A stretch of 64,000 bases of DNA from Sipunculus nudus (lineage: Eukaryota; Annelida; Sipuncula; Golfingiida; Sipunculidae): NCBI GenBank assembly GCA_026874595.1, contig CM049316.1:26767339-26831338 (forward strand), read 5' to 3'. The notes beneath the pieces were generated by a model, which searched no databases, was not told where the DNA came from, and was given only the letters and a program-made list of their open reading frames with translations. The position numbers and the translations under genes are program-made. This document shows, one piece after another, positions 3,162-59,628 of this stretch (position 1 is its first letter; every line of letters begins with the position of its first letter).

Positions 3162-6100
3162 CTGAAACAAAAAAGAATAAATATGCTTAGTGTGGTACAC
3201 TTAAAAACATGATCACTGTTATAGAATATTGTAATACTACTTTTGCTTCTTATCACCACCTTAGTATTAACTATTAACACTTGAAATAATTATTTCTTGC
3301 TGTGTATGCATAAGCATATTTCAGCTTTTCTTATGAATTCTGCTTAACCAAGATTTTTTTGTTTAACAAGGGACCCATGGGTCACGGCGCTCAGCTGTTA
3401 TATATGATAAAAATATGATTTGGGAAAGAGGCACATGCTTGTTTTGTGTGGTAATAAATATAAGCTTTATTATGAGTTGTTGGTGTTTAGCTTATGTATG
3501 ATTTTGATAGTATCTTTGGAGACAGGGAAGAGGATTGATTTCATTTATTTTATTAACAAATGGAGTGCTATTGTCACACAGATTTTGACTTGGCCATATA
3601 ACTTATTAGCAGCATATGTTATAAAAGAGTTTAACTATTTATTAAAATTTATAATAACAAATATTGTGCCAATATAGTTTTTATTTAAAAAAATAAGAAA
3701 ATCATATGATTTTTTAAAATAAAATATAACTGAAATGATTATTGAAATAATATTATAGAATATATTCATGAATGCATTCATGAAAACATTTTGAAAGTAC
3801 CTGCACTGGTATTCAAATACTTTCATTTTTACCTGAATTCCCATTCTTATGCAATAAAATTGTTTTAATGCAGTACATATTCATATTCGTATTCAAATAC
3901 ATTTGCAAAGCATTCACACCATGTCTAGTATTTATTCAGTTTTAGCCAAACAAAGATGTTGAGAATCCAGAATATACAAAATTCACAAATTTAAATAATG
4001 ATCTTAAGTACCTGGTTTTATGGCTTTTATTTATATTAAAAAAAATAAATGTAATGTATTCACTTTGGACTACTTTCACATCAATCTACACACTAGACAC
4101 AGTAGGAATCTAGATTAATATTATCAACTGTGTCTTCCTTCATATGATCCCTAATGATTAGTAATGAATAATATGATTTATTTTTTTATCATTAAAATTT
4201 CACTGAAAAATACCATAGGTGACTGCATGGTGTTATTTGGAATAACATTGACATTGACATTCTATCCATCTATACAAGATTCTTACATCATCAGTAACTG
4301 CAAGTTAATTTTCTGTTACTCATCAACTAACAAATTCCTTTTCTATTAATTTTTCTTTAATTTGTTATAAAAAAAAACAATACAAAATTATTAATTTATT
4401 GTTTATTGTTATGTTGTTTTTCAAAACAACTACTAGATGAGTTGGGTTGGACACCTGGATCAACTGTGGCTGGGCATTAGCTGCCTGGCTGCCCTAGTGT
4501 ATGCTTCGCTCAAGCATGCATAATTTGATGAAAGGTCAACAAGGTCAACATACAGGTGACTGAAGAGGGGCTGGATTAAGCCTGGGTCTGACATGGTCTC
4601 ATATAAACATTAATAAAAGCTACAATATTTGGCCAATTTCTTTCAGCTTTCTAAACTACAAAGATGAAATCCTTATGTGTGCATGATATGAAAATTATAT
4701 CAACAGTGCCCTCAGGAAACAAATGTGCCATGGTCAAAGTTGGGCAAAATTTAAGGTACTAATTTTATATTTATATTTATACTAATAACTTATAAAATTT
4801 GAAAAATTCAGAACTAATTTTTGGTATTCAATTGAATCTTGATTAAATAATGTTACATCCCTGACAAAAAATCTCTAGCTTCAGCAATCCTCTTGTTAAG
4901 GGAGTAAATATATTTCTTGATTTTTTTTAAATTGCATGATGTTTGGGCCCATAACTTACAACAATTACGCAATACTGACATCATTTCTGGCATGTGCATA
5001 GCGAATGTATAGAAAAATATGTATATTATATATGATCAAAGTCAGATCAGTGGTTTTGATATTAGGCAGTCTTACAGTGTAACAATGGGTTTTAAATGGA
5101 AAAATGAAGTTTTTCATTAATATTTCGAAGGAATTAAGTCCTAGTGATAAAATTCTTGGCATGGTAGGGGATTTTGGAGACATCTAACTGTATGCTAAAT
5201 TTAGAGCTGAAGCTGGGGAGCTGAGCTCTAGCAAACTGCATAACACTAGCTTGATGTAAACTTTATGTGACATGGTGCTTGAAAACTTGAATAAAATCTA
5301 CAGTTTTTGATCAACTGGTTTCAAATTTTTGATGTTAACAGACAACATGCTAACAAAAACATGCTGTGAAAATTAAATCCACAGTACTTACAGGAAAAAA
5401 AACGTGCCATGGTTAAACTTGGGCAAAATTTAAGGTACCAATTTTATATTTTTGCCAATATTTAAAAAAATTTAACAGATTTTGATCTAATTTTGGGTAT
5501 ACAATTAAATTTTGATCAATTAAAGTTGTATTACTGAAAAAAAGTCTCTACCTTTAACACTTTTGGTCTTAAGTGACCAAATATCTTTCCTGATTTTTTT
5601 ACAGTCCATTATGTTTGGGCCCATAACTTTTTTATAATAAATAATACTGACTTAAATTCTGGCATGTACATAGGAACTATATAGAGGAATATTTATGGTA
5701 AATATGAAGAAAACCAGATGAGTGGTTTTGATATTAGGCAGTCCTGAAGTGTGAAAATAGATTTCTAATAAAAAATTGAGGTTTTTCCTTAATATCTAGA
5801 AGGAACAAAGTCCTATGGACCAAATTTTCGGCATGGTAGGAGATTTTTGGGACATCTAACTGTATGGCAAATTTCAGATTCGTAGGTCCAATGGTGTCGA
5901 AACGTGCCAGTCTTACGGACGGACAGACGAACGGAAAGACGGACGGACAGACGACAGACAATGGACCACGACTATAGCTCAGATGACTTATAGTCAGCTG
6001 AGCTAAAAAACCTTTTAAAGATTTTTGTTGGTGGAGGTAACTGCCTCCATTTTTTATGCTCGTCTTATCTAATGTCTTATCTAAGTAGGTACATATACAT

Positions 6101-9100
6101 ACAGGTACATCATTTCTGTTTGGGACCACATAACAGGGCAATAGCACTTGCTACCTATCATGTTCTTTTGTATCCTGGTGTCACACCGGCCAGTTGTCTA
6201 CTGCACCTGCTGGTCCAGGATGAGTAATAATCACAATTCCTGCACCCAGGAATCTTCCAAAGACACATGCTTTTGTGGGTGATAAATGGCTGTGCCGCTG
6301 TGGGACACAGTCTTCCCATTAACTTAATAATTAAGCATGCAGTCTGCTCACCCTGGCTGGAGGCATAGTGGAATGGCCAACTGTGAAAATTCTCACTGTT
6401 CCTTTGCCAAGAACTAAACTAATGGCCTCCCTGCTTGGAGTCATGTGTATCTAGACCAAAGAAGTCAGATTATGAGGATACACATCTAGTCTGAACAGTC
6501 TCTCTCTGATGGTCATATTTTTATGAAATGAACATAAGATGACTTGAGATGCATAATAAAAACTAGAATAAAGGTAGTCGACAAGCGACTACGTGTATCT
6601 GCCAAAATCAGAGTAAGACAGGTTAAGTGAGGCATGGATTGAGTGGCAAGGGGAAGTCCTAATGACCCAATTTTCGGTATGGTAGGACATTTTGGAGACA
6701 TCTAATGGTATGCAGAATTTTGGATTCGTAGGTCCAATGGTTTCAAAACATACCCTGCTAACGGCTGGACGGCCAGACGACGGACAAAGGACCATGACTA
6801 TAGCTCAGATGACTTATAGTCAGCTGAGCTAAAAGGCTTTCCAGGATGTAAATGTATGCCAAATTTCAGGTGAATTAGTCAAACCACTGCAGAGCTATGA
6901 GTGATTTTAACCCAAGGCAGACAAACTGATGGATGCTATGCAAAAATAGTTGCAGGTGGCTTCACCGTTTTCGTGTATGTTATAAAGCTATCCAAGGACA
7001 TTTGTACAAATTGTTTTTCCTGATTGGTCAAACAAGTCCAAAGATGTGTGTATTAATGTGTCAAAACAGACTCACAGACGGACGCACTGGAGAGAGGAAA
7101 GGTCAAGGTCAACGCTGAATCGTTAAGCACCAGGGTTGGGTTTTATCCGGATAAAACTTGTTTAATCCAGGACAATGGATAAAATTGGGTTTTATCCGGT
7201 TTAATCCAGTTTTATCCGGATAATACAGGTTTAAACTGGATCAAACTAAGAATTACCTTGTAAAATTTAATTAAATAAACATAAATGATAATCTGGATAA
7301 ATAAGTTCAGAAGGATTATTAATATATGAACAATATATAAGTTTTATATCAAATTGGCAATTTCCTCCAGGTTCATGTTTCTCTGTTGCCAACATCCACT
7401 GTTAACTTATGTTCAACACTCCAAAATGAGAAGCTGTCACTTTGTCTTCTTTGTTACTTTTCTGGCTAGTAGTCAATTTTTAAATAGGATGTATCATCTT
7501 TATAGCATCATCCTCGATCAGCCATTAAATATTTAATCATAGTCATAGGGCAGGTTAATAGGGTAACTTTTGTGGCCCTATAGTCAACAACTAATTATAG
7601 AGACCGTGGAGGAGGATGCCTGAATGACTTTAATCCAATGGAGGTATCACCTCTCAGGCTGTCATGACTGGATGATTGTCAAATGGTAGTCCACTGTGGC
7701 TCCTTGTGTAAACATGCCTTACCAGTGGCAAAAGAGTCAAGGATTTATACTACTACCCCACATTCAGAGAAACCTACTTGGGCAAGATAGCTTTTTAAGT
7801 ATTTAATTATTTGCTTCATGAAAGGTCACCCCCACAAAATTACTGACATAGTGACTGATGTCACTGTGTATCTCAAGTTATTTATGCAATAAATAACTGA
7901 ATTATGTACATCTCTCTCAGATGTAAGAATAGATGCTTATCTGTGAATATATGATATTCTATAGTACCACTCATTGTGAAGTTTAACTAAACATGTGTGA
8001 ACTGCAATTGTTTATCTTTTTTACAGTATAATGTACAAAATAGGTGAGAATGTTTTAATAAGTCATTCTCTAATTGACCTCTCTAAAGAAGAGAAATATT
8101 TTCAAGTTTTAAAATTATTATTAAAATCATGTCATGACTGTCTGTGACAAAAACAATGAGTTTTATGTATAAATATATGGTAGCATTACAATTCAGTTCA
8201 CTAGACATAAATGTTCCTTATAAGAACTGTATCTTTTTAAAGTGGAAAGCTAAACTTTATATAAAATGTCTACTTCACAGACAGTATACACCCAAATTTC
8301 GGATAAAACTGGATAAAACCTGTTTTATCAGATCCTGATTAATCCAGATTTATCCAGTGGATTAAACCAACTGCAGATAAAACTGCCAACCCTGTTAAGC
8401 ACCAGTTCACATGTGACCTAATAACTGGTGTAAGATTCAGAAAAATTGGTCTAGTAGTCTCAGAAGAGTTCTCTGGAAACTAACACTGCGGTGGTGGCGG
8501 AATCAAGTCAAAAACATAGTATCCGCAAAACTTTTGGCGGATACAACTAACAAATGGTGACAAATATCACATACACAGCAGTTCCTGTTTCACAGTTACA
8601 AACTGAGCAAATCACTATAAATGTTTTTCATTGGTAATACAGTGAATTATTTTGAATATTTATATTAACTTTTAAAAAAGAACTCAAGTAGAAACGATAA
8701 ATGCATCAACTGTATATACAAAGAAACTTTAAAAGAAGTTTGAAGAACAAATTTCATCACTTAATGTATTATACTCTTTATTTTTTACATCCAATATATC
8801 AAATATTTCCAGTCACTCAGTCATTATATTTTATGATGCATGGCATCATAAAATTTTGCAGTCATAAATACTGTCCATTCAGCTTGCACTGGTGACTAGG
8901 CAATTAATCCTGAGCCCTAAAGTTTTATGACCTCAGAGTAAACATCACACCTCTTCATCAAGTGGTTTGTTCCAATCAAGTACTGCCCTGAAACTCCAGC
9001 TGGGTACTGATCACTGAAGCCAATTAGTGATAGAGGGGGAGGAGTAATCCAGTTTCCCAAATATGACTAGAAGGCATATTACTAACCTGGTTAAAGAGTT

Positions 9101-9191
9101 TAGTACAAAGGCTCCCATTAATAACCTTCCATGACTCTCTGTAAACTGGAAAACCTGCAATATTGATTTATAATATATGAGCTTTTCTGTA

Positions 9192-9223
<32 letters not shown>

Positions 9224-9766
9224 TCATTTCATATAAAATCACATGTAACCATGCCAATAATAACCTAAGACATAACAATTTTAACATTCTGACAACTGTT
9301 AACCAATTTGCATTCAGTGTTTTAAATGAGATGTTAAGGTTTCAGTAAAGATAAAAGGTACTGTCTTTTAAGTAAATTATTTTCTATCACCAATAAAATA
9401 AAATTCTGAAATATTCAAACACACCTTTGAATTTGTCAGAATTAAGAAAAAATTACTGTTAAGAACCACTGCCTTTTACAGATATATATACATTTACAGT
9501 ATTTAAAACAAAATTGTAAGAAGATTCTGAAAAAAAAATAAAAATTTTCACCATACACTCTTATCATTATATAATCTTTTTATCATATTAAAGCAAATCC
9601 CTACCTTATAACCAAGAAGCTGATCTAGCGATCGATGGGATCCCACCATGAAGCATGTTACCGTGATCCAAGTGCCTAAACTGACATAAAAAAAACACTG
9701 CATGGCAACCATCTGAGCCACAATCAAGCCTGGGTCCCAGGCTGCACTTCTGAACTGTCCTGGCAT
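2921..9766 (-). CDS. SYS1: SYS1 Golgi-localized integral membrane protein (3 coding exons)
   Basis: Joined minus-strand exons 9766..9605, 9154..9087 and 3161..2921 give 156 codons plus TAG, the same length as human SYS1. The N-terminus MPGQFRSAAWDPGLIVAQM and the stretches KQCLDFTLTAHFLHL and VLGEFLCMRSEMKAIPL match the SYS1 family closely. Four hydrophobic spans are visible at about residues 13-33, 64-85, 91-110 and 118-138, followed by a short polar tail. In other animals and yeast SYS1 sits in the trans-Golgi and recruits the Arf-like GTPase ARFRP1/Arl3, so it supports Golgi-endosome traffic. The start is the Met aligned with the family N-terminus. Intron phases are 0 and 2, with GT donors and AG acceptors. 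Intron 2 is about 5.9 kb and full of repeats. It is read away from COX4, probably from a shared promoter near 10.4 kb. Identification is firm; function is by homology. Confidence 0.96.
3365..3398 (+). mobile_element. Isolated 5' head of family G element
   Basis: AACAAGGGACCCATGGGTC followed by ACGGCGCTCAGCTG matches the 5' head of the minus-strand element ending at 26,731; the body is missing. Confidence 0.5.
3399..4610. other. SYS1 intron 2, AT-rich, no gene seen
   Basis: Very AT-rich sequence with short spurious open frames on both strands; no coding pattern, repeat family or RNA gene recognised. Confidence 0.6.
4611..6007 (+). mobile_element. Family B repeat, two tandem units (B1)
   Basis: Two diverged units of about 680 bp (4,611 and 5,290) share GTGCCATGGT..AAA..TGGGCAAAATTTAAGG, ATGTTTGGGCCCATAACTT and TTTTGATATTAGGCAGTC. 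The second ends with a GACGGACA-type microsatellite and a 31-base hairpin at 5,975-6,005 (TAGCTCAG...CTGAGCTA arms) plus an A-run. The short open frames inside are not coding. Confidence 0.75.
6178..6480 (-). mobile_element. SINE family 2 (copy 1)
   Basis: Minus-strand words CAGTGAGAATTTTCAC, CCAGGGTGA, and the distal GGGTGCAGGAATTGTG line up in the same order with copies at 37,020 and 51,098. Confidence 0.5.
6653..6836 (+). mobile_element. Family B 3' fragment inside A3 (B3)
   Basis: About 185 bases matching the last part of B1, including TTTTCGGTATGGTAGGA and the terminal hairpin at 6,801-6,831. Family A sequence lies on both sides. Confidence 0.7.
7131..8394. mobile_element. Non-autonomous hAT-like transposon with 8-bp target duplication
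   Basis: Termini CAGGGTTGG... and ...CCAACCCTG form inverted repeats, followed inward on both sides by AATCC/TTTTATCC-rich subterminal repeats. TTAAGCAC is duplicated exactly at 7,123-7,130 and 8,395-8,402. The 8-bp duplication and CAGGG termini are hAT hallmarks. No transposase frame is present. The left end includes the perfect palindrome GTTTTATCCGGATAAAAC at 7,140-7,157. Confidence 0.88.
8550..9086. other. SYS1 intron 2, distal part
   Basis: AT-rich, with no recognised feature. Confidence 0.5.
9087..9154 (-). CDS. SYS1: SYS1 coding exon 2 (residues 55-77)
   Basis: A 68-bp exon coding VFQFTESHGRLLMGAFVLNS and then LT plus two bases of Ser77. It is preceded by TTGCAG and followed by GTTAGT. 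The GRL..FVLN.LT pattern matches the second span of SYS1, and the phases fit both neighbours. Confidence 0.93.
9197..9223. repeat. (TA)n microsatellite in SYS1 intron 1
   Basis: Uninterrupted TA dinucleotides. Confidence 0.9.
9605..9766 (-). CDS. SYS1: SYS1 coding exon 1 (residues 1-54)
   Basis: Starts with ATG (complement of 9764-9766), contains the first membrane span, and ends at ...LLGYK before a GTAGGG donor; phase 0. 162 bp. Confidence 0.95.
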
Positions 9767-10139
9767 TTTTTTTAAGTCTGTGGTATCTTCTTCTTAAAAT
9801 GTCTTAATAGATATTATCACATCAAATATTCCACTTTTGTGGAAATATTTAATTGGCCCATTCAGCAGGAATATACATCTTGCAAAACTGCCAAAATATT
9901 ATGTTCCCTTGATGATTAAAAATGTTTTCAAAGTTCTGAATCATGTCATAAATCTAAAGTAAGCCATTTTCTTTAAAAAAAATACGGGCAATATTACAAA
10001 AGATGAATTGTCAAACGTTATCACCAAAGTTTGACAGTTAAGAAATTTGAGTAACTAGAGAGGAAGTAAAAAGTGAAAACTGGCTATTCTCCGTCTTAAT
10101 TACGGTAATACCGATATCTCTTGATCACTATGATCATTT

Positions 10140-10260
10140 ATTGACTGCGCTGGAATCTGTTGTTGACAATCCTGTGACCTCGCAGTCAGACACTGATGGG
10201 TGCGAATTTGATCCACTCTCGGTGTTGTAACAGTGGATCGTCAGCCTACTCTACCGTTAC
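10140..10260 (+). mobile_element. Possible tRNA-derived SINE remnant
   Basis: GGGTGCGAATTTGATCCAC resembles a tRNA B-box and is preceded by CTCGCAGTCAGACACTGATG. The A-box side is poor and no second copy was seen. Confidence 0.25.
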
Positions 10261-10366
10261 TTAAACCTCCTCAGTCGCTATAGAATAAAATATAATACAT
10301 AAGCGACGAAAAGATGGGAATAAAGTCAATGATTCACGAAATAAAACGAAGTATCCGGGTAAATAC

Positions 10367-10504
10367 CTTCAGAAACTTTGACGTATCACAGATGACATGG
10401 GCGTCGCCATGTTGAATACCGTGAGATTTCGCGCATGACCGAAACCAAACGATACCACACACGAGACTTCCGTTGTACCAGCTCTCTACCGGAAACTCCT
10501 GCAT
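10367..10504. promoter_or_regulatory. Probable bidirectional promoter of SYS1 (-) and COX4 (+)
   Basis: A locally GC-rich block between divergent genes. It has a YY1-like site (minus strand CAACATGGCG, about 10,403-10,412), an ACTTCCG ETS-like site at 10,466 and ACCGGAAA at 10,488. YY1 and ETS/GABP sites are typical of TATA-less housekeeping and respiratory-chain promoters. On the minus strand a GTATTT donor follows 10,367, which would close a SYS1 5'UTR exon. That exon would hold a 13-codon upstream ORF starting at the YY1-site ATG. On the plus strand GTGAGT follows 10,504, a candidate donor for the COX4 5'UTR exon, since the COX4 start exon has an acceptor 13 bases before its ATG. Transcript starts are inferred. 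Confidence 0.5.
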
Positions 10505-11882
10505 GTGAGTACATCGCTGTCAGGTACTACCAGCCAAACTTTCGTACAATTCATTTAGTGCAATGAAATTTTGCAAGCTTTATATGTCTTTATACAGTAG
10601 CCTGTCTGTGTTCTCAAATTGCCTGGAGTTATATACTTTCGATCTTTTTTACCGGCGCTTTGGGATCACCCAAGCGACCTTGACCAACCTTGGTCGGATG
10701 CCGTGGTTCCTGGTTTCTTTTTCGTGGTCGTGACAGATAACATGGACCAGTGTACAAATGTTTACATCAAGGTCATTATATACTACCAACCTTAGGTGTT
10801 ACCGTGAATGTTCCAATGATCTTATGTGTCTTCTGATATTGTGATCGATCGGTGCATATCACATTCAGCGGATTAAACAGTTAAAAAGCTCTGACAAATA
10901 GGCCTGGTGCAAAACTGTTTACACAATGACAATGTGACTTGTTTGACAGTGACCAGGTGACTGTTTGAGTTTTGTTTAGCAGTTTATTTTTTGGCAGTGT
11001 TTAATATATTTGATAAATAATAAATATGGTTTGTTTTACAGATAATGATTTAATTTGCCAAAGAATAAGACATATTGATTTATTTATATTTACATAATAT
11101 ATTTAAAATATAAAATGTAGAAACAAAATCCCATAAACTTTGTAATTCTGAGCTTCACGTGAAATATTCGTGAATTATTTTAAACCAACATAGGTGACGA
11201 AACACAATTATAAATTCATAATTGTAAAATAAATAAATCTTTTTATTAAATTGTTAAATTGTTTATTAATTATTACTTATTTATTAATGTTTATTAAATC
11301 AATCCGAGGAGTATTCTATCAAAGGACAGATACACTGTGAATGTTACCATTGTTGTAAAATGACGCTGTTACACAGAGAGCATAGCAGTTTCAAGTCAGG
11401 CCATCCTTAAAAAGTTCTGTGTTGGGGCTAACCCGGCCAGTCGTGATTTTTGGCTGCGGCTGGAATTTTTTTTGACATATCTGCAAATTAATATTTTTAT
11501 GTGATCTGCCGCAAGCACCTGGGCCCGTAAAAATCTGCCTTCATGTGCAAGAAAAATAGTCATTCTATTACATTTTTAGATGCACTTAATTTCCATAATG
11601 AAAGGTATTACCCAACGTCGCCGATAGTTTAATTTGAGCCCTAACAATTAGTCAGGTTGTGCCTATATATATACACGTGGAACGATCGCTACACTCGTGC
11701 GCGAGAGTAGAAAAACTGCCCGGAAACCGCCATCAAATTTTGTTGTTCTGGCGAAACAGGCTGAAAAAATATATTGAGCAATTAGAAATGGTTCTTATTT
11801 GATTTCAAATAAAGCGGAAGCTTACCGCTGTCGCACTAACTGATTAAATGAAAGTTCTCTCGACATTCATACTGTCAACTGA

Positions 11883-12058
11883 CCAATGTTGGCATTTAAA
11901 CCATGTGACACGTTGATTTGCATAAACAAGTGCCTGGCCCACATAAACATTCTTGTGATTGGCGGAGCGGTCACGCGTCATAGCCAGAGAGCCAATAAGA
12001 GGTTCGTAGTAAAAGTTCACCCCATATGACTTCATTCATCACTATTTTGGCGGGAAAA
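11883..12058. promoter_or_regulatory. E2F / CCAAT / octamer cluster
   Basis: TTTTGGCGGGAAAA (12,045-12,058) is a near-ideal E2F site. CCAAT boxes lie at 11,883, 11,958 (inverted) and 11,992, the last two about 30 bases apart, and the octamer ATTTGCAT is at 11,916. This combination is typical of cell-cycle promoters. It lies inside the 2.33-kb element. The only frame starting at it (12,058-12,252, 64 aa, one hydrophobic stretch) is not recognisable, so any gene served is unknown. Confidence 0.35.
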
Positions 12059-12499
12059 TGTTCACTGACATCGTGTCGCTTACACTGGGTATAATTTTTT
12101 CAGCAACACTCACGGTAGGCCTATATCAAGCAAATGAAGCGGGCCTATTTAATGGAATCTGCAACTTACGACGTGTAACGCACGATCTCCACAAATCAGA
12201 TGTTTGGTATTACAAGAATTGCATGATTTTGTCAGTTCTGTGGCGATCATGACAGGGTTTTGCGAGGTGTCTGACGCATCGTTTCTACCGGCCACAGCTG
12301 ATCAGAACAGGCATAACATATAAGCGCCTTTCTTTTTTTTTTTTGGTTGTGTTTCTTTTTAACTGCCTTTGTAAATTTATTTCAATTTATTAATAGCTTT
12401 TATAATAAACAGATATTTCCTGACCGTACGGCATTTCTTGTTTAGACGTAGACTAGATAGAGATCAACATTGCTCGCTCAGTCATTAATTACAGAAAAA

Positions 12500-13055
12500 T
12501 ACTAGAATATCAGCAAAAGCTGACAAAAGCCCTCAGCCAAAAGAGCAGTATTTATGGGTGGTAACAGTAACAAGTATTCATGTAATATTTGTTCTCACAT
12601 GGATATATATCTGTACATATGTCTTTTGTTCAAGCTATGAAATGGAACTAGAGAGGTATGAACTTTGTAAGTCTGGCCCCAGTCTTTGTGAGTCATGCAG
12701 CACTTATGAGATCATCAAGGCCAATGACCATTCCATATTCCAAAACAATCCATCCAGTGGTTCTTTAGAAATAAGCTCCTAAGTTTTTTTTCTATTATAA
12801 GCTCTGTGACCTTGGGTCATCCATCTTGGAACTTGACCGAGGTTTTGTTGATATGTATCAGCACCAAAGAAATGAAATTTCTGTGTTGAATACTTTTGGA
12901 GATATCCTCCTCACATGGTAAATGTTAACACACGCCGGTTATTTTCTATAATTCGCTCTAAAACGTCGAGAAATAAGTCAAGGTCACCCATCTTCGAACT
13001 TGACCAAGATTTTGTTTGTATATACATCACACCGAAGAAATAAAATTCCTAATCA
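12500..13055 (+). mobile_element. Family E element E2 (3'-truncated)
   Basis: Begins ACTAGAATATCAGCAAAAGCTGA-type head with the sub-terminal AGCCCTCAGC at 12,528-12,537, then modules with AAATAAGCTCC, CTCTGTGACCTTGGGTCA and TCAAGGTCACCCATCTTC, shared with E1 at 35.5-36.5 kb. Confidence 0.65.
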
Positions 13056-13311
13056 GGGTACACATTCAATATATGGTTTCATCTTTCAAAAAGTACAGTT
13101 TTACATATATTTATATAAACATTTTATATATTCTACTACCTTATTAGGCATTGACTATTACTAAGGAGTTCATTTATTACCGTCCTTCTTAATTATACCT
13201 CTTCACTTGCAAAGGAAATCTCAAACTGCACTCATTCCTACAATTCTGGCACTCGCATACAACACAAAATAAAATTGTCTGCAAATTCATGTGAGATCCA
13301 GAACAAGGCTT

Positions 13312-13410
13312 ACAGGCCTAATGCGAACCTGTGCAATGGGATATACATCAGTTATAATGCTTCCATGATAACATGCTTGACCATTATTGGAAAAGTACTT
13401 GATAACTTTT
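13312..13410 (+). mobile_element. Family M 5' head (M2)
   Basis: AACAAGGCTTACAGGCCTAA followed by TGCGAACCTGTGCAA and TATAATGCTTC matches the minus-strand head ending at 25,615. Confidence 0.6.
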
Positions 13411-14602
13411 CAAATACCTGAATGTTTGACATGTACATGTTCAAAGCATGTACTAAAACATTTTAAACCCAAGTACAGGATTTTAAGCCTGTAATAAAAC
13501 ACAAAATCTGTTCAGAGATACCTTGTTGTGCATGTTTCAATGGTATCGAGGCAAGGAATGAATGGAGTACGGGTATGTAATTTGACATAAACCTCGCATA
13601 TGCTAATATCCGGTAAAAAAAGGTGTAGTAAACTCCAGATCCTCCTTTAAAAAAATATTTTTTTCCTCCCTACCTGATGACTTTTTTTGGACCAATGTTA
13701 GCCCCAACACAGAAATTTTTAAGGATGGCCTCATAAGGACAATATAAAACAGGTCAATTGAATTTTCTGGAGAGTAAGTTTAGAGTTTACACCAATATCT
13801 TGACACGGCCAGATCCACCAAGCTTTCGGTTCACATGTTTAGACATGACAGGACCGTGTAAGCGGCTGATGTCAAACTAAATAATTACTAACAGGGTTTC
13901 TGGCAGAAAATAATGGGCACTGAGCACATGAGGTAGTGGGGTGGGGGAAGCCCCCCTCCCACAATGTGAGAAAATTTTGAATATCAGACCTTAAAATGGT
14001 GTGTTTGGGGGATGCCAGAGCGCTAATTTGATCAGTTACAAACGAATCTGATTTTCTTCATACTGTTTGATAGGTGGTGATTCATTTCATTGATGGTCAT
14101 GACTTGCAAGAGATATGAACTTAACATTGATAGAAAGTAAAAGCATTATGGATGCGGCAGTCAGGTATCAGTGCTATTGAGATAACAGTCATATTGTTTG
14201 AGTTGTTATCCGCTGCGCAACTGATCTCGTGCGCTTATTTGCATTCAGTGCTCATTGCACTAGTATTGACAGGTTTATGTATTTTGATCAGCAAAAATTC
14301 AGTTTTCATGTGCAAAGTTTAAACATTGTGGTTTAATTAACTACTGGTCCTAGGATTTGACGAAAGTCGTCGACATCGTCACTGTTTAAGGGTTGGCGAC
14401 ACAAATTGATTACAAATGATCAGAATCAATTGTTTTTATTTTGGTTTCAGGTTGTTGGGGCGAAATCATGCCCCCCTGCTCCCCTTATTTTCATGCAGAA
14501 GTGTTATTTAGTGCACCCCATGGCTAACATTATCATCAAAATAATTTAGGTAGAATATGTGCATCAAGTTTTAATCTCTTTAGAGTGTGGAAGAATGTTT
14601 CT

Positions 14603-15034
14603 TCAAAACTTTAACAGACGTGGTTCTGTTAAGTGTGACAACCCCCGAATTCTAATTAAAATCATACTACCAGCTGTGCAGGGTGCACGGTTGATGGAAC
14701 AGCCACATGGCGACCGGCTCTCCCTGGTCCCGAAAACACTGCGGTCAGGTTCTTGACAAAATCCCTCTTGTAAACTTAGTTTTAATGTGCCATTGCGGAG
14801 ATCAAATGTGTGTTCACCAGGGATGGGTGGGCGTGTAAACTCAAGCAGGTAATACCCCTTATTACCCGGGTGGGCAATAAACCTTAAAACCCACATGCAG
14901 GTTTTAATTGGCAATATGATTTGGGCTTTTCTAGAAGCATTCTTTTCAATTTCAGAATCACTGCATAAAATCCATATAATCAAATAAAGAGGAAAAACTG
15001 CAGTGATTGTCCATGAAATAAGTTTAGGTTTCAT
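14603..15034 (-). other. 143-codon open frame, doubtful coding status
   Basis: The longest open frame in the window. It opens MKPKLISWTITAVFPLYLII, which looks like a signal anchor, after a favourable CACC context. The remainder runs through AAAACCC/CAGGGATGGG-rich sequence that looks transposon-derived, and no homologous family is recognised. It lies in the long putative COX4 5' intron. Probably fortuitous. Confidence 0.15.
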
Positions 15035-15773: not shown

Positions 15774-15806
15774 TTATCTTCGGATTTCCTTATGAAATCC
15801 GAAGAT

Positions 15807-19680: not shown

Positions 19681-19964
19681 TCAATAACTTTGTTTGTGTC
19701 ATGAAATGCAATGTCAGAGTCTGAATCCAAGGCTGTCTCTTTGTCAAAGCTAATTTCTTCTGGTACCCATTTGTTTCTTTTTTTTTTTTTACAAAAAAAA
19801 AGGTTGGATTGCAAGGTTTTCGGATTGTCAAGGGTTGGAATGTCAACTCCGGACTGTATTTGCAATTTAAACTATAGGTTGTGATATTGGATTTGTGTAA
19901 CCAAAATGTTTGAAATAGAATTTTATATATTATTTTCTTACTGTTTTGCAGGAGCACCAACACG

Positions 19965-23000: not shown

Positions 23001-26000
23001 TAATTTGGGGGAAAAAACAAAGATTGATTATTGATCTATTATTTTATGTACTTTCTATATGACCTTAAAATCTGCTGTATACTAGTACCTTAAATATTGA
23101 TCCCAGTTCATAGTCTGACATGTAGGCCTACATTGGTATTCAAAATTAAATCATCAATCCACCTGCATCCAAGGTAGACCTGCTCTCTGACAGAATTAGG
23201 TTCTTTTTATGTGCATACATATAAATCTGTATTTATCAGCTCAGCTGACTGAGAGTCATCTGAGCTATAGTGATTACTCTTTGTCCAACTGTTTGTCTGT
23301 CCATCTGTTGGTCCGTTAACAAGGCAAAAATCATTGCCGATGGATCTAGAAACTTCTAATTGAAAACCCATGGAGGTCCATATAAAATCCCCTGGCAAAC
23401 CTGAAATAGCTCAGTGAGTTAGAGGGTTGTAATAATGATCATGAGATTGCAGGTTCAAAGCCAGATGGTGCCGTATCATATTTACTCTTCTTTCATGCAT
23501 CTTGTTAGGACCCTAAAAAATGGTGCCCTGTAGTGATCACTGTGTCCATCTGTCTGTCCGACTCTTTTCTTTTGTGGGGGATATCCCAATGGATCTTTCT
23601 CAAATCCACAGGGATGATTTGTTCCAAGGAGGGCTCCGTCCCTATCGAATTTCAGACCTGCCAAAAATTCAATATGGCTGCCAGAGCACAATTGGTGATT
23701 TTCTTTTGTGCACGATATCCCAAAGGGAACATGATGGCTTTTCCTCAGATTCACAGGAATAATTGGTACCAGTGTGGGCTCCAGACCTATCAAATAACAG
23801 GTCTGTTACATAATTGGCAATCACAGCACAATCAGTGATTTTTTTTAGCGCACAACATCTCAATAACAACAGGCTTGATCTTTCTCAAATTCACAGAGAT
23901 GAGTGGTACCTATGAGGGCTCCAGGTCTATTGAACTACAAACCTGTCAGATTTTCAGTATGGCCCAAATGGGACAATCAGTGATTTTCTTTTGTCCGCAC
24001 TATCTGAACTAAAACATTCTTGATCTTCTCAAATTCACAAGAATGATTGGTACCGATGAGACCTATTGAATTACAGACCTGTCAAACTTCAAATATGTCA
24101 ACCACAGCACAATTGGATTTTATTTTTCGCACAGTATCTTAACACAAACCTGCTTGATCTTTCTCAAATTCCTAGGGATCGTTGGTACCAATGGGGGCTC
24201 TGTCCCTTTCAAATTACACAACTGCCAAAAATCCAATATGGCAGCCAGACCACAATCAGAGATTTTGTATTGCAGACATTGCATGAGACATATCTTCATT
24301 AATATGAGTTGAACCAGTAGCATTTTTTCTCATCATGCATATTGATAAAAACCTGTTTCTCTTTGTCATATTGTGAACTATAAACTTTTGCCCAATATGT
24401 AAACAAGCTAACCACTACCTGAAATGCTGTACCATCTGATGACCATTGTCCAACTACATCTGGTAGTTCTAATGAATTCCTTGTCTTATAGGTTATACAG
24501 GAGCTGGTAATAACTCTGACTTAGTGAAATAGTAAGCTAGAAGAGGCTTAGGTCTTTTTTTTCCAGAACAGCTTTCACAGTACACGAGTGATTCTCTTGT
24601 CACTCTGTGCATTGAATCATATACCTGGTAATTTCAGTGTTTCCACCTCCTGTCATGTGCATTTACTGTTTCAGTGTACCGTGCCAGCTTCAGAGAAACA
24701 TTCGCAGAGATGCATGCCCCCAATGCTGAGTGGAAGCGTATCCTAGCCCTGACGCTTCTGGGCGTTTCTGTCACAGGCTGGCTGTTCATCTTCTTGAAAC
24801 TTTATGGTAAGTACCTGTATTGTTCAAATCAGCATCCATGTATCACTGAAACATTCATATTTATAATTTTCTTGACAAGGGTTAGTTTCACAAAGCAGCA
24901 AGATTATTCTAAAATAATTGAAAATATCTTCCATTCTTTGCACATACTTTGACAATTCTTTTGTCATGATCATATACGGCACAGTATCCCAGGATACTTC
25001 AAACTTAGCATTGGGGGGGGGGGTTCATGAAAATCTGTTGGCAGTAATGGGGAACCAATTGCTGAAGTTTCTCAGTGCAGTAGATGGATTCTATTTATAG
25101 CTTTGGCAGACTGCCAACTGTGTCAAATTATGCAACAGGTCAAGAGTTCACTCAGTGCAGCCAGGTACAGGTCAGATGTTCACTCAGTCTAGCCAGGTGC
25201 AGGTCAGGAGTTCACTCAGTGCAGTAGCTGGAGCCAGCAATTTGTCACAGTTCACTCTGGGCTTTCAAGACAGGTGTTGCCACCTTCAATGACTTTTGCA
25301 GAGTGTATGTGCCTGCTTATTTCTCCAGAGGAATTTGATATATCAGCCTGAAATTGGGCAAATTTATAAATAGTGTAAAGTTTTGTCCTATACAAGACTG
25401 GTGATGCCACCTACAAAATTTTTGCACAGTGTTTGTCCCTGCTTATTTCTCAGGAGGGGATATCAGCCTGATATTGGGCATAAATATACATCTCTGATAC
25501 CTTCGTCTTATACAAGACATGTAGACCTACTTGAAAAGTAATGGCCCAGCATTGAAGCATTATACCCGATTTATAAACTGTTGCACAGGTTCGCATTAGG
25601 CCTGTAGGCCTTGTTTGTTATTTTAACAAATATTTTTTATTTTTACCATAAAATGACAACAATCATGTCAGTTTCCCAGATGTGATAACATCTAGTGTCA
25701 AAAGATCTGGTGTGTTTATTGTTCACAAGTGGATGCCCTATAGTAATCACCTTGTTTGTCTGTCTGTTTGGATGTCTGTCCATCTGTCAGTCCCCACAAA
25801 TTAGTATCCAGATGATAACTCCAGGTTGGATTGACACATGGATTTCAAACTCGACTTAAATATGGCCCACCACTAAAGCAAGAACCTATATGATTTTTGG
25901 GTCATGAGGTCAAGGTCACAGGACTTACTTATTTAAATAGATTACGGCTGCATTTTAAGCCAAGCTTTTCATCCCAAACTTTCCAACTTATGCATTTAGC

Positions 26001-26927
26001 AGAATTGCCAGTTTGGGGAGAGCATATATGAATTTTAGTTTCCGGATGATAACTTCAGTTTAGTTTGACATGTTTTTTTCAAACGTAACTTATATATGGC
26101 TCACCACTAAGTAAGAACTGTGACGATTTTGGGGTCCAGCGGTCAAAGGTCAAGGTCACAGGACCCATTTCTTTAAAAAGAAATTATGCATTTCAAACCT
26201 TCCATCTTCAAGATATTGCTAACCTGCCAATAGGGGAAGGTTCTATTGGATTTTGGGGTCAAGGGGTCAGCGGTCAAGGTCACAGGGCCCATACATTCAC
26301 AAATTAGTTTATGGATGATAATTCTGCTTTGCCTAGACAGATTGACTTCATACTGGATTTATTAATGACCCAACACTTAAGTAAATTCATTTTGATTTTC
26401 AAGGTCCAGAAGGGTCAAAGTTGAAGATCATGGGAGCCACATCTTTAAAAAGATTGTGGATGCACTGGAAAGCAAACTTTTCATCCCAAACTCTCCGACT
26501 TTAACACATGGTTTACTTGCCCAAAGTGAGGAAATATGTAAATTTTGAGGTTACCTGGTCAGATTGTTACAATAATCTAAATGCTGCAAGTTCAAGGATA
26601 AGCTGCAAGTCCTAAGATTTTTGGTCACAGGGGTATTGACCAAGGTCACAGGACTGTCATTCTGAAAAATTTCTTTAAAATATCCTTATAGAAAAACTCA
26701 GCTGAGCGTCGAGACCCATGGGTCCCTAGTTTATGAAAAAACTGAATCACTGAATATTCAATATTTATCAAATGTATACAATCTGTGTTTCAGTGTATCC
26801 TCCTATGCCCGTCACCATCACAAAAGAATGGAAGGAAGTCTGTCTTCAGCGCATGGTGGACCAACGACAGGGCCCAATCGAGGGTATCGCGTCGAACTAC
26901 GACTACGAGAAGGGACAATGGAAATAA
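19965..26927 (+). CDS. COX4: Cytochrome c oxidase subunit 4, mitochondrial (4 coding exons)
   Basis: Exons 19965..20091, 21663..21833, 24675..24806 and 26794..26927 join in frame to 187 codons plus TAA (human COX4I1 is 169). Residues 1-26 are Arg/Ser-rich without acids (MLRALARRGLQLSQRSLSTT), a mitochondrial presequence. The matrix part has REKEKGDWKNLSLEDKKALY and FRETFAEMHAPNAEW. One membrane helix lies at about 121-139. The intermembrane tail has PITIT-like PMPVTITKEW and ends GIASNYDYEKGQWK, the family C-terminus. COX4 is the largest nuclear-encoded subunit of complex IV and binds regulatory nucleotides in mammals. Introns are phase 1 throughout with GTAAGT donors. The start exon has an acceptor (TTTTGCAG) just upstream, so a non-coding 5' exon must exist, probably near 10.5 kb. 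Confidence 0.96.
20586..21015 (+). repeat. Dispersed repeat L, copy 1 (COX4 intron)
   Basis: Shares, in order, CAATCAGACTCACA-like, TTCTAAATACAC, ATATAAATGTAG and GTAACAAATTTTAATTTAAA-like words with 46,896-47,225 on the same strand. Confidence 0.6.
21663..21833 (+). CDS. COX4: COX4 coding exon b (residues 43-99)
   Basis: Acceptor TTACCTTAG; reads GNRDVVGYGFNGNPTYQDRP through SLEDKKA, with GTAAGT at 21,834. The two longer open frames starting at 21,669 and 21,640 are other-frame shadows of this exon. Confidence 0.95.
22000..23230. other. COX4 intron 2, proximal part
   Basis: AT-rich, no gene or known repeat recognised. Confidence 0.5.
23237..23400 (-). mobile_element. Family B 3' fragment (B4)
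   Basis: Minus-strand copy of the family B terminal hairpin (23,237-23,267, TAGCTCAGATGACT..AGTCAGCTGAG form) with adjoining sequence. Confidence 0.5.
23407..23476 (+). mobile_element. tRNA-like SINE head
   Basis: A-box-like TAGCTCAGTGAGTTAGAG and, at the expected spacing, B-box-like GCAGGTTCAAAGCC. It has no cloverleaf that pairs well, so it is not a functional tRNA. Confidence 0.5.
23520..24300 (-). repeat. Family G element with ~140-bp tandem modules (G3)
   Basis: Modules recur at about 140-base spacing, each with TTTCTCAAATTCACA, ATTGGTACCA, GGGCTCC and ACAATCAGTGATTTT. The left end GGTGCCCTGTAGTGATCAC resembles that of the element at 25,728. Several apparent open frames here are repeat-derived. 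Confidence 0.65.
24675..24806 (+). CDS. COX4: COX4 coding exon c (membrane helix, residues 99-143)
   Basis: Acceptor TGTTTCAG; reads LYRASFRETFAEMHAPNAEW and then the hydrophobic helix ILALTLLGVSVTGWLFIFL, closing with GTAAGT at 24,807. Confidence 0.95.
25136..25231 (+). repeat. 32-bp minisatellite, 3 units
   Basis: CAGGTCA(A/G)...GTTCACTCAGT begins at 25,136, 25,168 and 25,200. Confidence 0.8.
25260..25615 (-). mobile_element. Family M element (M1)
   Basis: The 5' end at 25,615 reads AACAAG then hairpin GGCCTacAGGCC on the minus strand. The interior has two modules with TGCTTATTTCTC and ATCAGCCTGA and a GGTGATGCCACCTAC motif. Confidence 0.6.
25728..26731 (-). mobile_element. Family G element (G2) in COX4 intron 3
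   Basis: Minus-strand head AACTAGGGACCCATGGGTC, then three or four modules of roughly 200-250 bp carrying GGTCAAGGTCACAGG, and a left end with GTCTGTCTGT microsatellite and TGCCCTATAGTAATCAC. Confidence 0.7.
26794..26927 (+). CDS. COX4: COX4 coding exon d (C-terminus, residues 143-187, stop)
   Basis: Acceptor GTGTTTCAG; reads VYPPMPVTITKEWKEVCLQR and ends NYDYEKGQWK then TAA at 26,925-26,927. Confidence 0.95.
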
Positions 26928-27280: not shown

Positions 27281-27299
27281 ACATGGGACTTTACTTAAT

Positions 27300-28639: not shown

Positions 28640-29813
28640 GTATCCGCCAAAACAAAGTTTTGTGGATACTGTTTTTTACCGGGTTTTACCGCCGCCGCCG
28701 CATACATGTCCGGAGATCTCCTCTGAGACTACTGAAAGGATTTTTCCAAAACTTTCACCAATTATCGGGTCACATGTGAACTGGTGCCTAACCAATTTGT
28801 GTTGACCTGTGACCTTTCCTCTCTGCCCAGCATCCATTTGTGCGTCTGTTTCCATACATAAACCCACATATCTAATGAACCGTTTGACCGATCAGGAAAA
28901 AAATTTTGTACAAATGTAGCCCTTGAATAGCTTTATAACATACAAAAAATATGGTGGCGCCACCTGCAACCATGTTTGCACAGTGTCCCATCTGTTTATC
29001 TGCCTTGGGTTAAAATCACTCGTATCTCTGCAGTGGTTTGACTAATTCACCTGAAATTTGGCATGTGTATACATCCTGGATAGCTTTCTTTATATTATCA
29101 CAGGTGGCGCCACCTATATTCACGTTCACTCTGCAAACATCCAAGCTCGTATCTCGGGAACCGTTTGACCGATTGGGCCAAAATTTTACACGTGTATTTC
29201 ACATAGCTCTTTATCATACGCAAAACTGGTGGCGCCACCTGCAACCATTTTTGCACAGTGTCTGTCTGTTTGTCTGCCGTAGGCTAAAATCACTCCTATC
29301 TCTGTAGTGGTTTGACATAACTGCCAAAAATTTTGCATGTTTATACATCCTGGACAGCTTTCTTGATTTTATGACAGGTGGCGCCACCTATATTCTTGTT
29401 TATGCTGCAGACATCCAAGCTCATATCTCGGGAACCGTTTGACTGATTGGGCCAAAATTTTGCTTGTGTATAAAATCTCACATAGCTCTTTATTATACAC
29501 AAAACTGGAGGGGCCACCTGCAACCATTTTTGCACAGCGTCTGTTTGTCTGCCGTGGGCTAAAATCACTCATATCTCTGTAGTGGTTTGACTTTTCTGCC
29601 TAAAATTTCCATATGTATACAACTTGGACAGCTCTCTGGATTTGTGGTAGGTGGCGCAACCTATATACACATTTCGGCTGCAGACATCCATGCTAATATG
29701 CAACACACCTCACCCTATTTCACCTTGCCACTCAATCCATGCCTCACTTCACCTGTTCCACTCTGATTTTGGCGGATACACGTAGTCGCTTGTCAACTAC
29801 CCGTATTCTAGTT
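28640..29813 (-). mobile_element. Family A element A2 (near full length)
   Basis: The minus-strand 5' end at 29,813 reads AACTAGAATACGGGTAG with hairpin arms, then GTATCCGCCAAAATCAGAG. The 3' end at 28,640 is a hairpin closing in TTTTGGCGGATAC. The interior has about 135-base modules with perfect GGTGGCGCCACC at 28,954, 29,103, 29,228 and 29,377. Confidence 0.85.
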
Positions 29814-34514: not shown

Positions 34515-56529
<22,015 letters not shown>

Positions 56530-56540
56530 TTTGACACCGT

Positions 56541-56555
56541 GACCCGGAAGTGAAA
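56541..56555 (-). promoter_or_regulatory. ETS/GABP-like site at the VPS35 start
   Basis: CCCGGAAGTG on the plus strand (CACTTCCGGG on the gene strand) lies about 15 bases upstream of the VPS35 ATG. Such sites commonly sit at TATA-less housekeeping promoters, and the Met-only exon means the transcript start must be close by. Confidence 0.5.
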
Positions 56556-56699
56556 CCAAATACACTGACTGGCGGCTTGTCACTAATCTACGCCCTCTGT
56601 AGACTGGTTCCCTGCTCCCAGGGTGCCAACTTGAAGTCGCGCACTTTCCCTCGACTACATTATACAAACCGTTAACACATTTTACTTCCGACTATTATT

Positions 56700-58500
56700 T
56701 CATCTTATACATTAAAATAATTACACGAGAGATAGCCTACGTCATATAGGCCTATATTTCAGTCTCATTTTGCATTGCATAGGCCTATTTACATGCACTG
56801 AACACCGTTCCAAACTGTTTTATTTTTTTGTATCCTTAAATTTAAATGGGGATTACTCCAAATATACCTTACATAATATCTAATACAATTGTATAACTTG
56901 CAGAATATCTAATACAGTTTATACAATAACTACTTAAAGGACCCAATCCCCTAAATCTGACCTTTCTGGACTAAAGGTAATCCCTTGAAGCTTTAATAAA
57001 TATAGGTCAGAAAACGTGGATATCACCGCACAGAGGCTGCTAGTTTGTTTATATAAACATGTTTATAATATGTGGGGATCCGCCAAAATAATCAAAACAA
57101 ATTCAACAAGGCATCTCATGACAAGTCAGATAAGCCATACAGAGCTATGCAAAAGGTGTTCTGCAACAAAAGACTTTTTTACCTCCGCAAATACGCAACC
57201 TAACACCTTAGGTTACATGATTTCCTGTTAGTCAACATTGCGGTGTTTACAAACATGTTGTTGATAAATTCATACATCCTTCAAGGAGGCCTTATAGAAA
57301 TTTTTCATAACCAAGTTACCCTTAGATCAAAAATATATGGAGATAAAATGTAAGAGGAAGAGGTAATAAAGGCCATGGTTGGTTTATACGATTGGTTTGT
57401 ATTGATGAGCAAGAAATTATTGCAAATAATATTTTGTGACCTGACCATGTGTTTCCTAATGTTGAAACTGAAGCATGTGAGGAGTTTGTGAACATATGAT
57501 CTGTATTATTACCATGACCATTAGTTGGCTTTTTGATTAACTGTTGACATTTCAGTAGTTTACACGTTTGTTCAATTGAATCTATTTTTTTGTATAATAT
57601 ATATTATTAAATATATATATGAATTTTTTTATGAAATGTATACAGTTGAAATATTTCTAATTAACAACATAAAACAGGGCAAACAAAGCCTGATCTCAAA
57701 TTCAGCTGAGGAGGGAAAATAATGAACAAATGTTTGTATTAAATCTTCATTTTTTATCACATCAATTTTTTTATTATAAGTTTATATTTCTATACATTTC
57801 CAAAATAATATATATATCTGAATATAAAAGTTGATTCATAATTCTCAATTGCATCATCATAAATCTCAATCTTTTCAGAAAACAGCACATCATGCATACA
57901 CATGTTTATTTATTTTTTACCACAAAAATATATCTTTTAAATCTGCAAAACAATAAATATCTTAAAATAATACTTGATTTAGATTTCACAATTTTTAATT
58001 GTGTCTTTATTTATCCATAATGTGCTTCATATTTTATAAATTTAAGCATACTGATGGGTTCAATTATATTTGTTAAAATCATTTAAAAGAAAATTGATTT
58101 CTTTAAAAATGCAACATTACACAACATTGCATCTTCTGGATTACACCTTGAATTACCTTTTCAAGGAAAGATTTTGCATATTGGAGTGGAAACAGCATTA
58201 CAATTAAGGAGATACAGTGAAAACAATAATAATTACTGCATAACACTTGGTGGCTTGGGTTTGCAGGGGAGGGGTGTTTGGGGTGGTGATATGAGAATAA
58301 CTGTACACCTGTCACAGCAGGTGATTTCCCCCAATGACTGTAACAAATCAGAAACTCTGGCATAGCTGCACCCAGTCACCTGGAGTGGGACCCTGCATCT
58401 GAAATCTGTAATCAAAGCAAATGACTACAATAGAGCCTCAAGAAAAAAAAATCAATAACTAGCCTAATTTTCAAGCTTTTATTTTCAAATTTCAGATTTA
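56700..58500. other. Upstream of VPS35, AT-rich, no gene recognised
   Basis: Short open frames on both strands without recognisable protein pattern. Confidence 0.5.
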
Positions 58501-58519
58501 TACAAATTAAATATTAATG

Positions 58520-59107
58520 TTTACATGCTGTGAAAATTAAATCAATGGTACTTACAGGAAAAAACCGTGCCATGGTCAAAGTTGGGCAAAATTTAAGGTA
58601 CTGATTTTATTTTTATGTGAATAACTTAAAAAAAATACAAAATTCAGATCTAATTTAGAGTAAACAATTGAATCTTAATTATACATAGATATATACTTGG
58701 AAAAATAGACTCTAGTTTCAAAATTTTTCATGTTTAGTGAGTAAATATTTTTCCTTATTTTTTACAAAGTCCATTATGTTTTGGCCCATAACTTAAACAA
58801 TTTATACTTAACAGACTTAATTTCTGGCATGTACATAGAAACTATATAGAGGAATATTTATGGTAAATATGAAGAAAAACAGATGAGTGGTTTTGATATT
58901 AGGCAGCCCTGAAGTGTGAACATATGTTTTTAATAAAAAATTGAGGTTTTTCCTTAATTTCTCAAAGGAACAAAGTCACAAAGACTCAGTTTTCGGCTTG
59001 GTAGGAGATCTTGGGGACATCTAACATTATGCGTCTACGGACGGACGGACGACGGACAATGGGCCACGACTATAGCTCAGATGACTTATAGTCAGCTGAG
59101 CTAAAAA
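58520..59107 (+). mobile_element. Family B element B2
   Basis: Colinear with the second unit of B1 (ACATGCTGTGAAAATTAAATC to the terminal hairpin at 59,073-59,103), then an A-run that merges into the next element. Confidence 0.75.
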
Positions 59108-59628
59108 AACAAGAGCACCGCAAATGGTGCATAATACGCCTGTTGCATATTTTTGTGACCTCTGCCCTCATTAAATATGCGTGAATTTGCAGATAATTTA
59201 ATTGAGGTGTAAAACTCTATAGATAAGTATGTATAAGGAGTTTCATGAAAATCCATAGGATTTTTGGTAAGTCACCACGGTGCCCCAAAAGTGCGGTGAC
59301 CTCTGATCTCATTTAATATGCGTGGATTTTGCTAAAAGTTGAACTAAGGCGAGATATTTATTTATTAACATTTCTGTTGAGTTTTATCAAAATCCATCAT
59401 ATTCTTCGTAATTTACACCACAAATTATCCAAGTGACCTCTGACCTTATTGAATATGCGTGGATTTTGCCCATAATCGAACTCGGGCGAGACAATCTATT
59501 AGATAGTAGTTATAGTGAGTTTCGTGAAAATCCATCAAAGCTCCGGTAAGTTATCGCGGCAACACTAAAAGTTAACGGACGGACGGTGGGTATACCATAA
59601 TACGTCCGGTTATAGACGGGCGTATAAT
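59108..59628 (+). mobile_element. Family F element
   Basis: Head AACAAGA with hairpin GCACCgcaaatGGTGC and sub-terminal ATACGCC (59,134-59,140). Modules with GTGACCTCTG and AATATGCGTG at 59,155, 59,296 and 59,433. An ACGGACGG microsatellite and a tail hairpin close with the inverse GGCGTAT (59,619-59,625). Confidence 0.8.

Follow-up and report, generated by a model that had tools for sequence, protein, structure and literature searches.

HINE/DINE-1 elements (HINE, Helentron-associated interspersed element) and the autonomous Helentrons share subterminal inverted repeats, a 3′ palindrome, tandem cores, a microsatellite and a T-rich target, as described by Thomas et al. (2014, PMC4067079). In their account, a HINE is a deletion derivative of an element encoding Rep, helicase and endonuclease, and one family has its gene in reverse orientation. 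Helitron2, as described by Bao and Jurka (2013, PMC3627910), inserts after TTTT, sometimes carries RepHel reversed, and shows compensatory changes in one element pair. Here, we analysed a stretch of 64,000 nucleotides from Sipunculus nudus (G000:C11:26767339-26831338, hereafter the window), in which a sequence-only reading had noticed at least seven repeat families (A, C, D, E, F, G and M). The genome searched amounted to 1.43 Gb in 153 contigs. We are confident that the seven families are non-autonomous Helentron (Helitron2-type) elements, that is, HINEs. Because each Helentron lineage serves its own end sequences, at least two enzymes, and probably three, would be at work.

From 5′ to 3′, the proposed layout comprises a T-run, a word set in a 5′ hairpin right at the boundary, a GTCC-type microsatellite, tandem modules, the inverse word 17-32 nt from the end, a GC hairpin, and CT(A/T)G↓TT, the arrow marking the boundary (CTWG below). 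It resembles the HINE/DINE-1 elements of Thomas et al. in its repeats, 3′ palindrome, cores, microsatellite and T-rich target. The dimensions differ, however: in the mite HINEs of PMC4067079, about 8-35 bp separate the palindrome from the 3′ end and about 38-60 bp the 3′ repeat, as against 2-11 nt and 17-32 nt here. Moreover, a 3′ CTAG is given in the relevant sections of that paper only for a Phytophthora "proto-Helentron" without endonuclease, whereas the end seen here is CT(A/T)G. Helitron2 is alike in having its 5′ repeat 0-2 bp from the end, in a 5′ hairpin, and its 3′ repeat about 20-30 bp from the end, before the 3′ hairpin (PMC3627910); as the parts of that paper used here stop short of the last 3′ letters, neither match nor difference at CT(A/T)G is established. 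The oyster Cg_HINEs (Vojvoda Zeljko et al. 2020, PMC7492417) also have a 5′ repeat and its inverse, a GTCC-type microsatellite in the left flank, a tandem array, a 3′ repeat followed by a palindrome, and a TT/T-rich target, and their published orientation is the one that partner loci confirmed here. According to the text of that study, its authors tied none of the Cg_HINEs to an autonomous Helentron, whereas families G and D were tied to one here.

Helentron loci bearing the ends of families G and D

The copies of G and D in the window are the following.

3367..6004, minus strand: probable HINE of family G; 3′ GACCC/GGGTC hairpin and CTTG at 3367, 5′ AGCTCAGCTGA hairpin at 6004
26650..26729, plus strand: second G copy, 3′ end region; hairpin, CTAG at 26726-26729
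58700..59102, minus strand: G copy, 5′ portion; its 5′ end at 59102 adjoins the 3′ end of an F element via a seven-A run
35308..36996, minus strand: HINE of family D; 5′ end at 36996 (ATGCCCCCGCC hairpin), 3′ end at 35308 (GTGTCG/CGACAC hairpin, CTAG), with a nested E element

The ends at 3367 and 6004 would belong to a single G element, and both match the G-ended Helentron described below.

A search with PF14214 (Helitron_like_N) yielded at least 143 matches, the best 150 of 195 candidates having been scored and some loci accounting for two matches. The sequence-only reading had placed the families among Helentron-derived non-autonomous elements and proposed to look for an autonomous Helentron with their ends. 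Its classification was borne out, as two Helentron loci were found that carry both ends of G or both ends of D. The G-ended Helentron (G000:C17:35625479-35640361, hereafter C17) is 14.9 kb long and holds a 2,342-codon frame in sense. Upstream of the frame lie the G 5′ end, TTTTT↓AGCTCAGCTGAC with its hairpin (AGCTCAGCTGACTGAAAGTCAACTGAGCT after the T-run), and a GTCC microsatellite; downstream lies the G 3′ end, made up of CAGCTGAGC (TCAGCTGAGCATCA), TGACCCATGGGTCA and CTTG↓TT. These are the tail and head of the window G copy, reverse-complemented. A second G 5′ end was found 724 bp further inside, and the element length could be 14.2 kb. The locus also holds a nested A element. The D-ended Helentron (G000:C3:41766495-41778497) is 12.0 kb long, with frames of 964 and 877 codons, the 5′ end TTTTT↓ATGCCCCCGCCAC upstream of them and CAGCGGGGGCATTCGTGTCGTTCCGACACATCTAG↓TTT downstream. 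Over 467 aligned positions, tandem units included, the window D copy matched the 5′ part of this Helentron at 87.8% identity, and it matched the last 57 nt of the Helentron at 87.7%. Judged by this similarity, D looks like a deletion derivative of a C3-like Helentron.

These loci also settled the orientation. The sequence-only reading had the elements begin with AACTAG or AACAAG. As the Rep-helicase frames of both loci read from its "tail" toward its "head", the direction is the reverse: AACWAG is the 3′ end (hairpin, CTWG, TT), and the "tail" is the 5′ end.

Family ends in the window and across the genome

Taken in reverse complement, the AACWAG head is CTWGTT with a GC-containing hairpin upstream. 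Of the 83 CTWGTT sites found on both strands of the window, 11 had such a hairpin upstream. In comparison, 30 first-order Markov sequences gave 1.4 on average and 5 at most, and six control hexamers gave 0-5. Family ends account for seven of the 11 (A, C, D, F, M and, twice, G); the other four, at 23323, 29395, 37306 and 54584, are not such ends. A hairpin-CTAG↓TT site noticed at 37301, AACTAGACCCTGGTCT, is assigned to none of the named families. The remaining copies in the window are listed below.

35554..36545, minus strand: HINE of family E within D; 3′ CTAG at 35554 (3′ word not seen), 5′ AGCCCTCAGC at 36545
39735..41796, minus strand: HINE of family C; 3′ AGACCC/GGGTCT hairpin and CTTG at 39735, 5′ AGTTCACTCTGTGAAC at 41796, 339-bp tandem core at 39868-41640
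59110..59625, minus strand: HINE of family F; 3′ GCACC/GGTGC hairpin and CTTG at 59110, 5′ ATACGCC at 59625
6563..8544, minus strand: HINE of family A, copy 1; 3′ GTAGTCG/CGACTAC hairpin and CTAG at 6563, 5′ GTATCCGCCAAAA at 8544; holds an inserted G 5′ fragment ending at 6830
28640..29811, plus strand: HINE of family A, copy 2; 5′ GTATCCGCCAAAA at 28640, 3′ CTAG at 29808-29811, 274-bp tandem core
25520..25613, plus strand: family M, 3′ end region; AGGCCT hairpin overlapping CTTG at 25610-25613, 5′ end (the former "tail") not found
13304..13360, minus strand: second M copy, 3′ end region; AACAAGGCTTACAGGCCTAATGCGAACC

All the heads and words quoted in the sequence-only reading were present, and the tandem-module interiors it described were seen. 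AACAAG or AACTAG heads lie at 3365 (+), 26731 (-), 35306 (+), 39733 (+), 59108 (+) and 25615 (-), at 6561 (+) for A and at 35552 (+) for E. The inverted words are GTTCACTCTGTGAA in C (39756/41782), ATGCCCCCGCC in D (35331/36986), AGCCCTCAGC in E (12528/36536), ATACGCC in F (59134/59619) and GTATCCGCCAAAA in A (28640/29767, plus 8532). Two of its statements stood only in part. The hairpin was said to follow the head directly, which does not hold for A and E, where 7 and 4 nt intervene. The head word was said to return inverted at the tail in five families; the words are there, but the E pair at 12528 and 36536 comes from two different copies, no 3′ word was seen at 35554, and the E copy near 12500 starts TACTAG.

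The 3′ word stands just before the 3′ hairpin, at 21 (C and a further family, X, described below), 22 (G), 23 (D), 24 (F), 26 (E) or 32 (A) nt from the 3′ end; for M, the value of 17 nt refers to a word that is only presumed, the 5′ end not having been found. The 5′ word lies in the 5′ hairpin in 10 of 10 copies of G, in all eight fetched copies of D, which were selected by a pattern including the hairpin, and in X. The same was seen in the window copies of A, C, E and F and, for F, in two of ten fetched copies, the only two in which the 5′ end could be placed. The 5′ ends read AGCTC, ATGCC, GCTTG and similar. At the 3′ end, CTAG occurs in A, D, E and X, and CTTG in C, F, M and most G copies seen. 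A 12-bp palindrome, GGTGGCGCCACC, is common to the tandem modules of families that otherwise differ (A and C, together with arrays near 48.5 and 62-64 kb), with 11 exact copies in the window (28953, 29103, 29228, 29377, 40952, 41291, 41629, 48534, 48683, 48812 and 62292).

Genome-wide, ends were counted with an exact pattern (family word, gap, CTWGTT) and the reversed pattern as control. This gave 3,154 ends versus 3 in the control for D, 292 versus 0 for C, 117 versus 19 for F, 3,635 versus 0 for A, 1,792 versus 3 for E and 5,514 versus 0 for M. Among the first 100 places viewed for each family, some F rows and three D rows were without the family hairpin. Conservation ended at CTWG↓TT in 40 of 40 copies (10 each of D, A, C and E), with CTWGTT being part of the search pattern. 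Indeed, letters were near-invariant up to that point, and the next positions held 0 to 1.1 bits. In a similarity search for the D 3′ end, with the best 40 of 939 candidates scored, 35 of 39 matches, one being the window's own, reached the last T of CTAGTT. The genomic ends of D, A, C and E thus coincide with AACWAG, as the sequence-only reading had it. At the 5′ boundary, five T preceded AGCTCAG in 10 of 10 copies of G (the query held the T-run), and at least five T ran up to it in five of eight copies of D (eight fetched of 17 found).

In several places, another HINE has a G 5′ end directly adjoining its 3′ end; this HINE is an F element in the window (59102-59110) and an E element in two of ten fetched E copies (L072 and L078). 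It is as if G favoured the T-run that follows CTWG.

Three protein lineages and the ends they carry

Protein comparison and a tree of nine proteins gave three Helentron lineages. Lineage I comprises C17 together with C13b and five others, which share about 60-90% identity with C17. Lineage II is the D-ended locus, with 32% identity to C17 and 37% to C11. Lineage III comprises C11, C4, C8, C13a and e1. Helitron_like_N and PIF1 scored over the Pfam cut-off in C13b, C17, C11 and the D locus (there in separate frames), and so did the endonuclease of the lineage I locus C13b (32.9 bits) and that of the lineage III locus C11 (49.8 bits). DUF6570 was present in all three lineages, and OTU in C11. Among the nine proteins examined, all had the HUH motif, all had Walker A, and eight had the two-tyrosine motif. 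We noticed that the N-terminal part of the proteins from C11, C13a, C13b and C17 contains in-frame tandem repeats of about 21-23 residues, whose number varies between copies. Three Rep matches spanning the full profile (G000:C7:48525832, 48556035 and 48587672) lie on the same strand, about 30-32 kb apart, and are possibly a tandem duplication.

The 3′ regions of 29 Rep loci (6 + 13 + 10) were read, compared with the at least 143 PF14214 matches. Downstream of 13 of them (45 kb), the hairpin-CTWGTT scan found 11 ends in sense, in 10 loci, versus 1 in antisense and 0.4 in shuffles. By eye, ten of these 11 are G-type (that of L023 being imperfect) and one is D-type (L022). Ten further loci, which brought the DNA read to 75 kb, gave sense ends in two, both G-type, versus 0 in antisense and 0.25 in shuffles. 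All lineage I loci with an identified 3′ end carry a G-type one, and the sole lineage II locus carries D ends. Furthermore, CAGCTGAGC is kept in C17 and c1/L020, two lineage I loci whose proteins are 60-62% identical.

Could these ends be chance neighbours, that is, separate insertions beside unrelated Helentron genes? The families do exist in thousands of copies, C17 carries a nested A, the 5,514 M ends would by chance place about 0.15 on the sense strand of the 75 kb read, and C13b is without a G 3′ end in the fetched DNA. However, only about 0.05 D ends are expected on the sense strand of 45 kb, and yet both D ends bracket the genes, in the correct order. G-type ends were 10 in sense versus 1 in antisense, and in L029, L030 and L032, three Helentrons about 98% identical, similarity is lost right after CTTG↓TT. 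We consider chance neighbourhood very improbable for G and D. For M, a 3′ end was found in sense at one damaged lineage III locus; this link is weak, as chance is possible given the 5,514 M ends.

At L030, a second G-type 3′ end (1213-1258, sense) lies about 40 bp past the 3′ end of the lineage I Helentron, and the flanking DNA on the right matches the G copy of the window, which looks like an insertion of this Helentron in the T-run of a G element.

Several observations weigh against the reading of the families as HINEs served by Helentron lineages, each with its own ends. In C13b, closely related to C17, the 6.6 kb following the frame contain no G 3′ end, and the match to the G 5′ end is weak (77%). 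No hairpin-CTWG end was found at three of the 13 loci (L025, L026 and L031) and at eight of the ten further loci; L031 has the best E-value in the PF14214 search, among the matches listed. No partner for A, C, E or F was found among the 29 Rep loci. The C17 endonuclease scored 20.4 bits, under the cut-off of 24.5, and is identified by alignment to its relatives; that of the D locus was also under the Pfam cut-off and is identified by alignment to C11 and a TETHS motif. Because the frames of the D-ended locus are interrupted and the two-tyrosine motif was not seen in its open frames, its own activity is doubtful. At the 5′ boundary, the remaining three of eight D copies are T-rich but have an interrupted T-run, and the five T of G come from top-scoring copies found with a query containing the T-run, hence a bias.

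Family X and lineage III

In lineage III (C11, C4, C8, C13a and e1), the hairpin-CTWG scan detected no convincing sense 3′ end of G-, D- or other type. A family that we call X was picked from a single site by the hairpin-CTWG↓TT rule, and it turned out to have 2,251 genome sites within two mismatches versus 0 in the control. X 5′ ends lie downstream of the lineage III gene, on the opposite strand, at all four loci with at least 10 kb of downstream DNA. The strand was judged by an exact 11-letter word and the microsatellite following it, the 5′ hairpin being nearly palindromic. This suggests that the lineage III gene is reversed relative to the X ends; the matching X 3′ end was not reached upstream. 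The link between lineage III and X is less firm than those of G and D to their lineages.

Among the first 100 places, X 3′ ends cluster at G000:C1:63.4-67.7 Mb and G000:C2:3.51-3.58 Mb. Those on C2 form a same-strand run with a spacing of about 5-16 kb, and several pairs of X are about 1.93 kb apart. Several Rep matches share the X-rich part of C1.

Stem differences and the number of enzymes

The 3′ stems are GTGTCG/CGACAC in D, AGACCC/GGGTCT in C, GCACC/GGTGC in F, TCAGC/GCTGA in E, GTAGTCG/CGACTAC in A, GACCC/GGGTC in G, AGGCCT/AGGCCT in M and CGACC/GGTCG in X. Between families, stems thus differ yet stay paired, with GACCC/GGGTC common to C and G. Within families, covariation was tested for D (95 rows, of 96 taken from the 100 listed) and A (74 of 100 listed, omitting rows that differed in length and those closing the listing). 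Neither gave a signal: D had one double compensated cell versus a shuffle mean of 1.09, and A had five, a value reached in 261 of 1,000 shuffles, versus a mean of 3.56. This is as expected, since copies mutate freely once inserted. Compensated changes were nevertheless seen between relatives. In lineage I, TGACCC/GGGTCA has become TGGCCC/GGGCCA (L027 and L112, with a related one-mismatch form in L024), and in X, CGACC/GGTCG has become TGACC/GGTCA (C13a, whose CTTG precedes TC instead of TT). Each of the two may be a single event. Compensation, taken as a check on the hairpins, therefore holds between lineages and goes no further than shuffles within D and A.

The sequence-only reading had proposed that all families are cognate to one rolling-circle enzyme reading structure rather than sequence, with AACWAG as the 5′ head. 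What speaks for it is that hairpin-CTWG↓TT ends are common to the seven families despite their different stems, and that four families have no partner of their own among the 29 loci read. However, G and D ends pair with different protein lineages, about 32% identical, and in the G- and D-ended loci the Rep frames point opposite to the proposed direction. Moreover, CAGCTGAGC is kept in C17 and c1/L020 at 60-62% protein identity, and therefore sequence matters too. With a terminal word conserved within a lineage and covariation null in D and A, recognition of structure instead of sequence was not demonstrated, and a single enzyme for all families is improbable. A further reading, which we regard as possible but unlikely, is that the hairpin and CT(A/T)G↓TT act as a common stop signal of endonuclease Helentron lineages (otherwise sharing about 30-37% protein identity), that the word is the key of each lineage, and that Helentrons foreign to A, C, E and F mobilise these families in trans by way of this signal.

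Class of the elements and proposed transposition

Two other classes were considered. Like Helitron1 (as described in the parts of PMC3627910 and PMC5148889 that treat its ends), the elements have a 3′ hairpin and, in A, D, E and X, a CTAG end fitting CTRR. Unlike Helitron1, they have no 5′-TC, the CTTG of C, F, M and most G misfits CTRR, a 5′ hairpin is present, and the partners from lineages I and III carry an endonuclease. The Helitron1 class, defined by 5′-TC and CTRR-3′ without a 5′ hairpin, was rejected: the 5′ ends seen are AGCTC, ATGCC or GCTTG-like. Alternatively, the families might be miniature inverted-repeat transposable elements (MITEs) derived from a cut-and-paste transposon whose terminal inverted repeats are imperfect. 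Inverted words do occur close to both ends, and pearl elements are filed as MITEs in the pertinent part of PMC5139131. However, the words are asymmetric, one at the 5′ end and the other 17-32 nt inside the 3′ end, rather than flush with both ends as in the MITE class, and the partner genes are Rep-helicases. The probability of this alternative is close to nil.

The anatomy of the HINE families fits the published Helitron2 transposition model. HINEs would be copied by rolling-circle transposition, through the Rep-helicase(-endonuclease) proteins of full Helentrons, those serving A, C, E, F and M presumably being Helentrons as well. By analogy with that model, the 3′ hairpin would mark where the copied strand ends, and the two inverted words, by pairing, would open the 5′ hairpin and set the end point.

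The kind of element is already known, as the layout matches the published descriptions of Helitron2 and HINEs that we used. New here are the partner loci for two HINE families, the CT(A/T)G end common to families of different lineages, and family X, which the end rule predicted. A literature search on CTAG and Helentron terminal motifs, judged from the papers as listed and not from figures, found no statement of a hairpin-CTWG 3′ end for endonuclease-bearing Helentrons, which is not proof of absence. Very abundant gene-less repeats are tied here to Helentrons with the same ends, a link that the oyster study, according to its text, had sought without success (PMC7492417). The analysis also settles which end is which, and the hairpin-CTWG↓TT rule led from a single site to the abundant family X.

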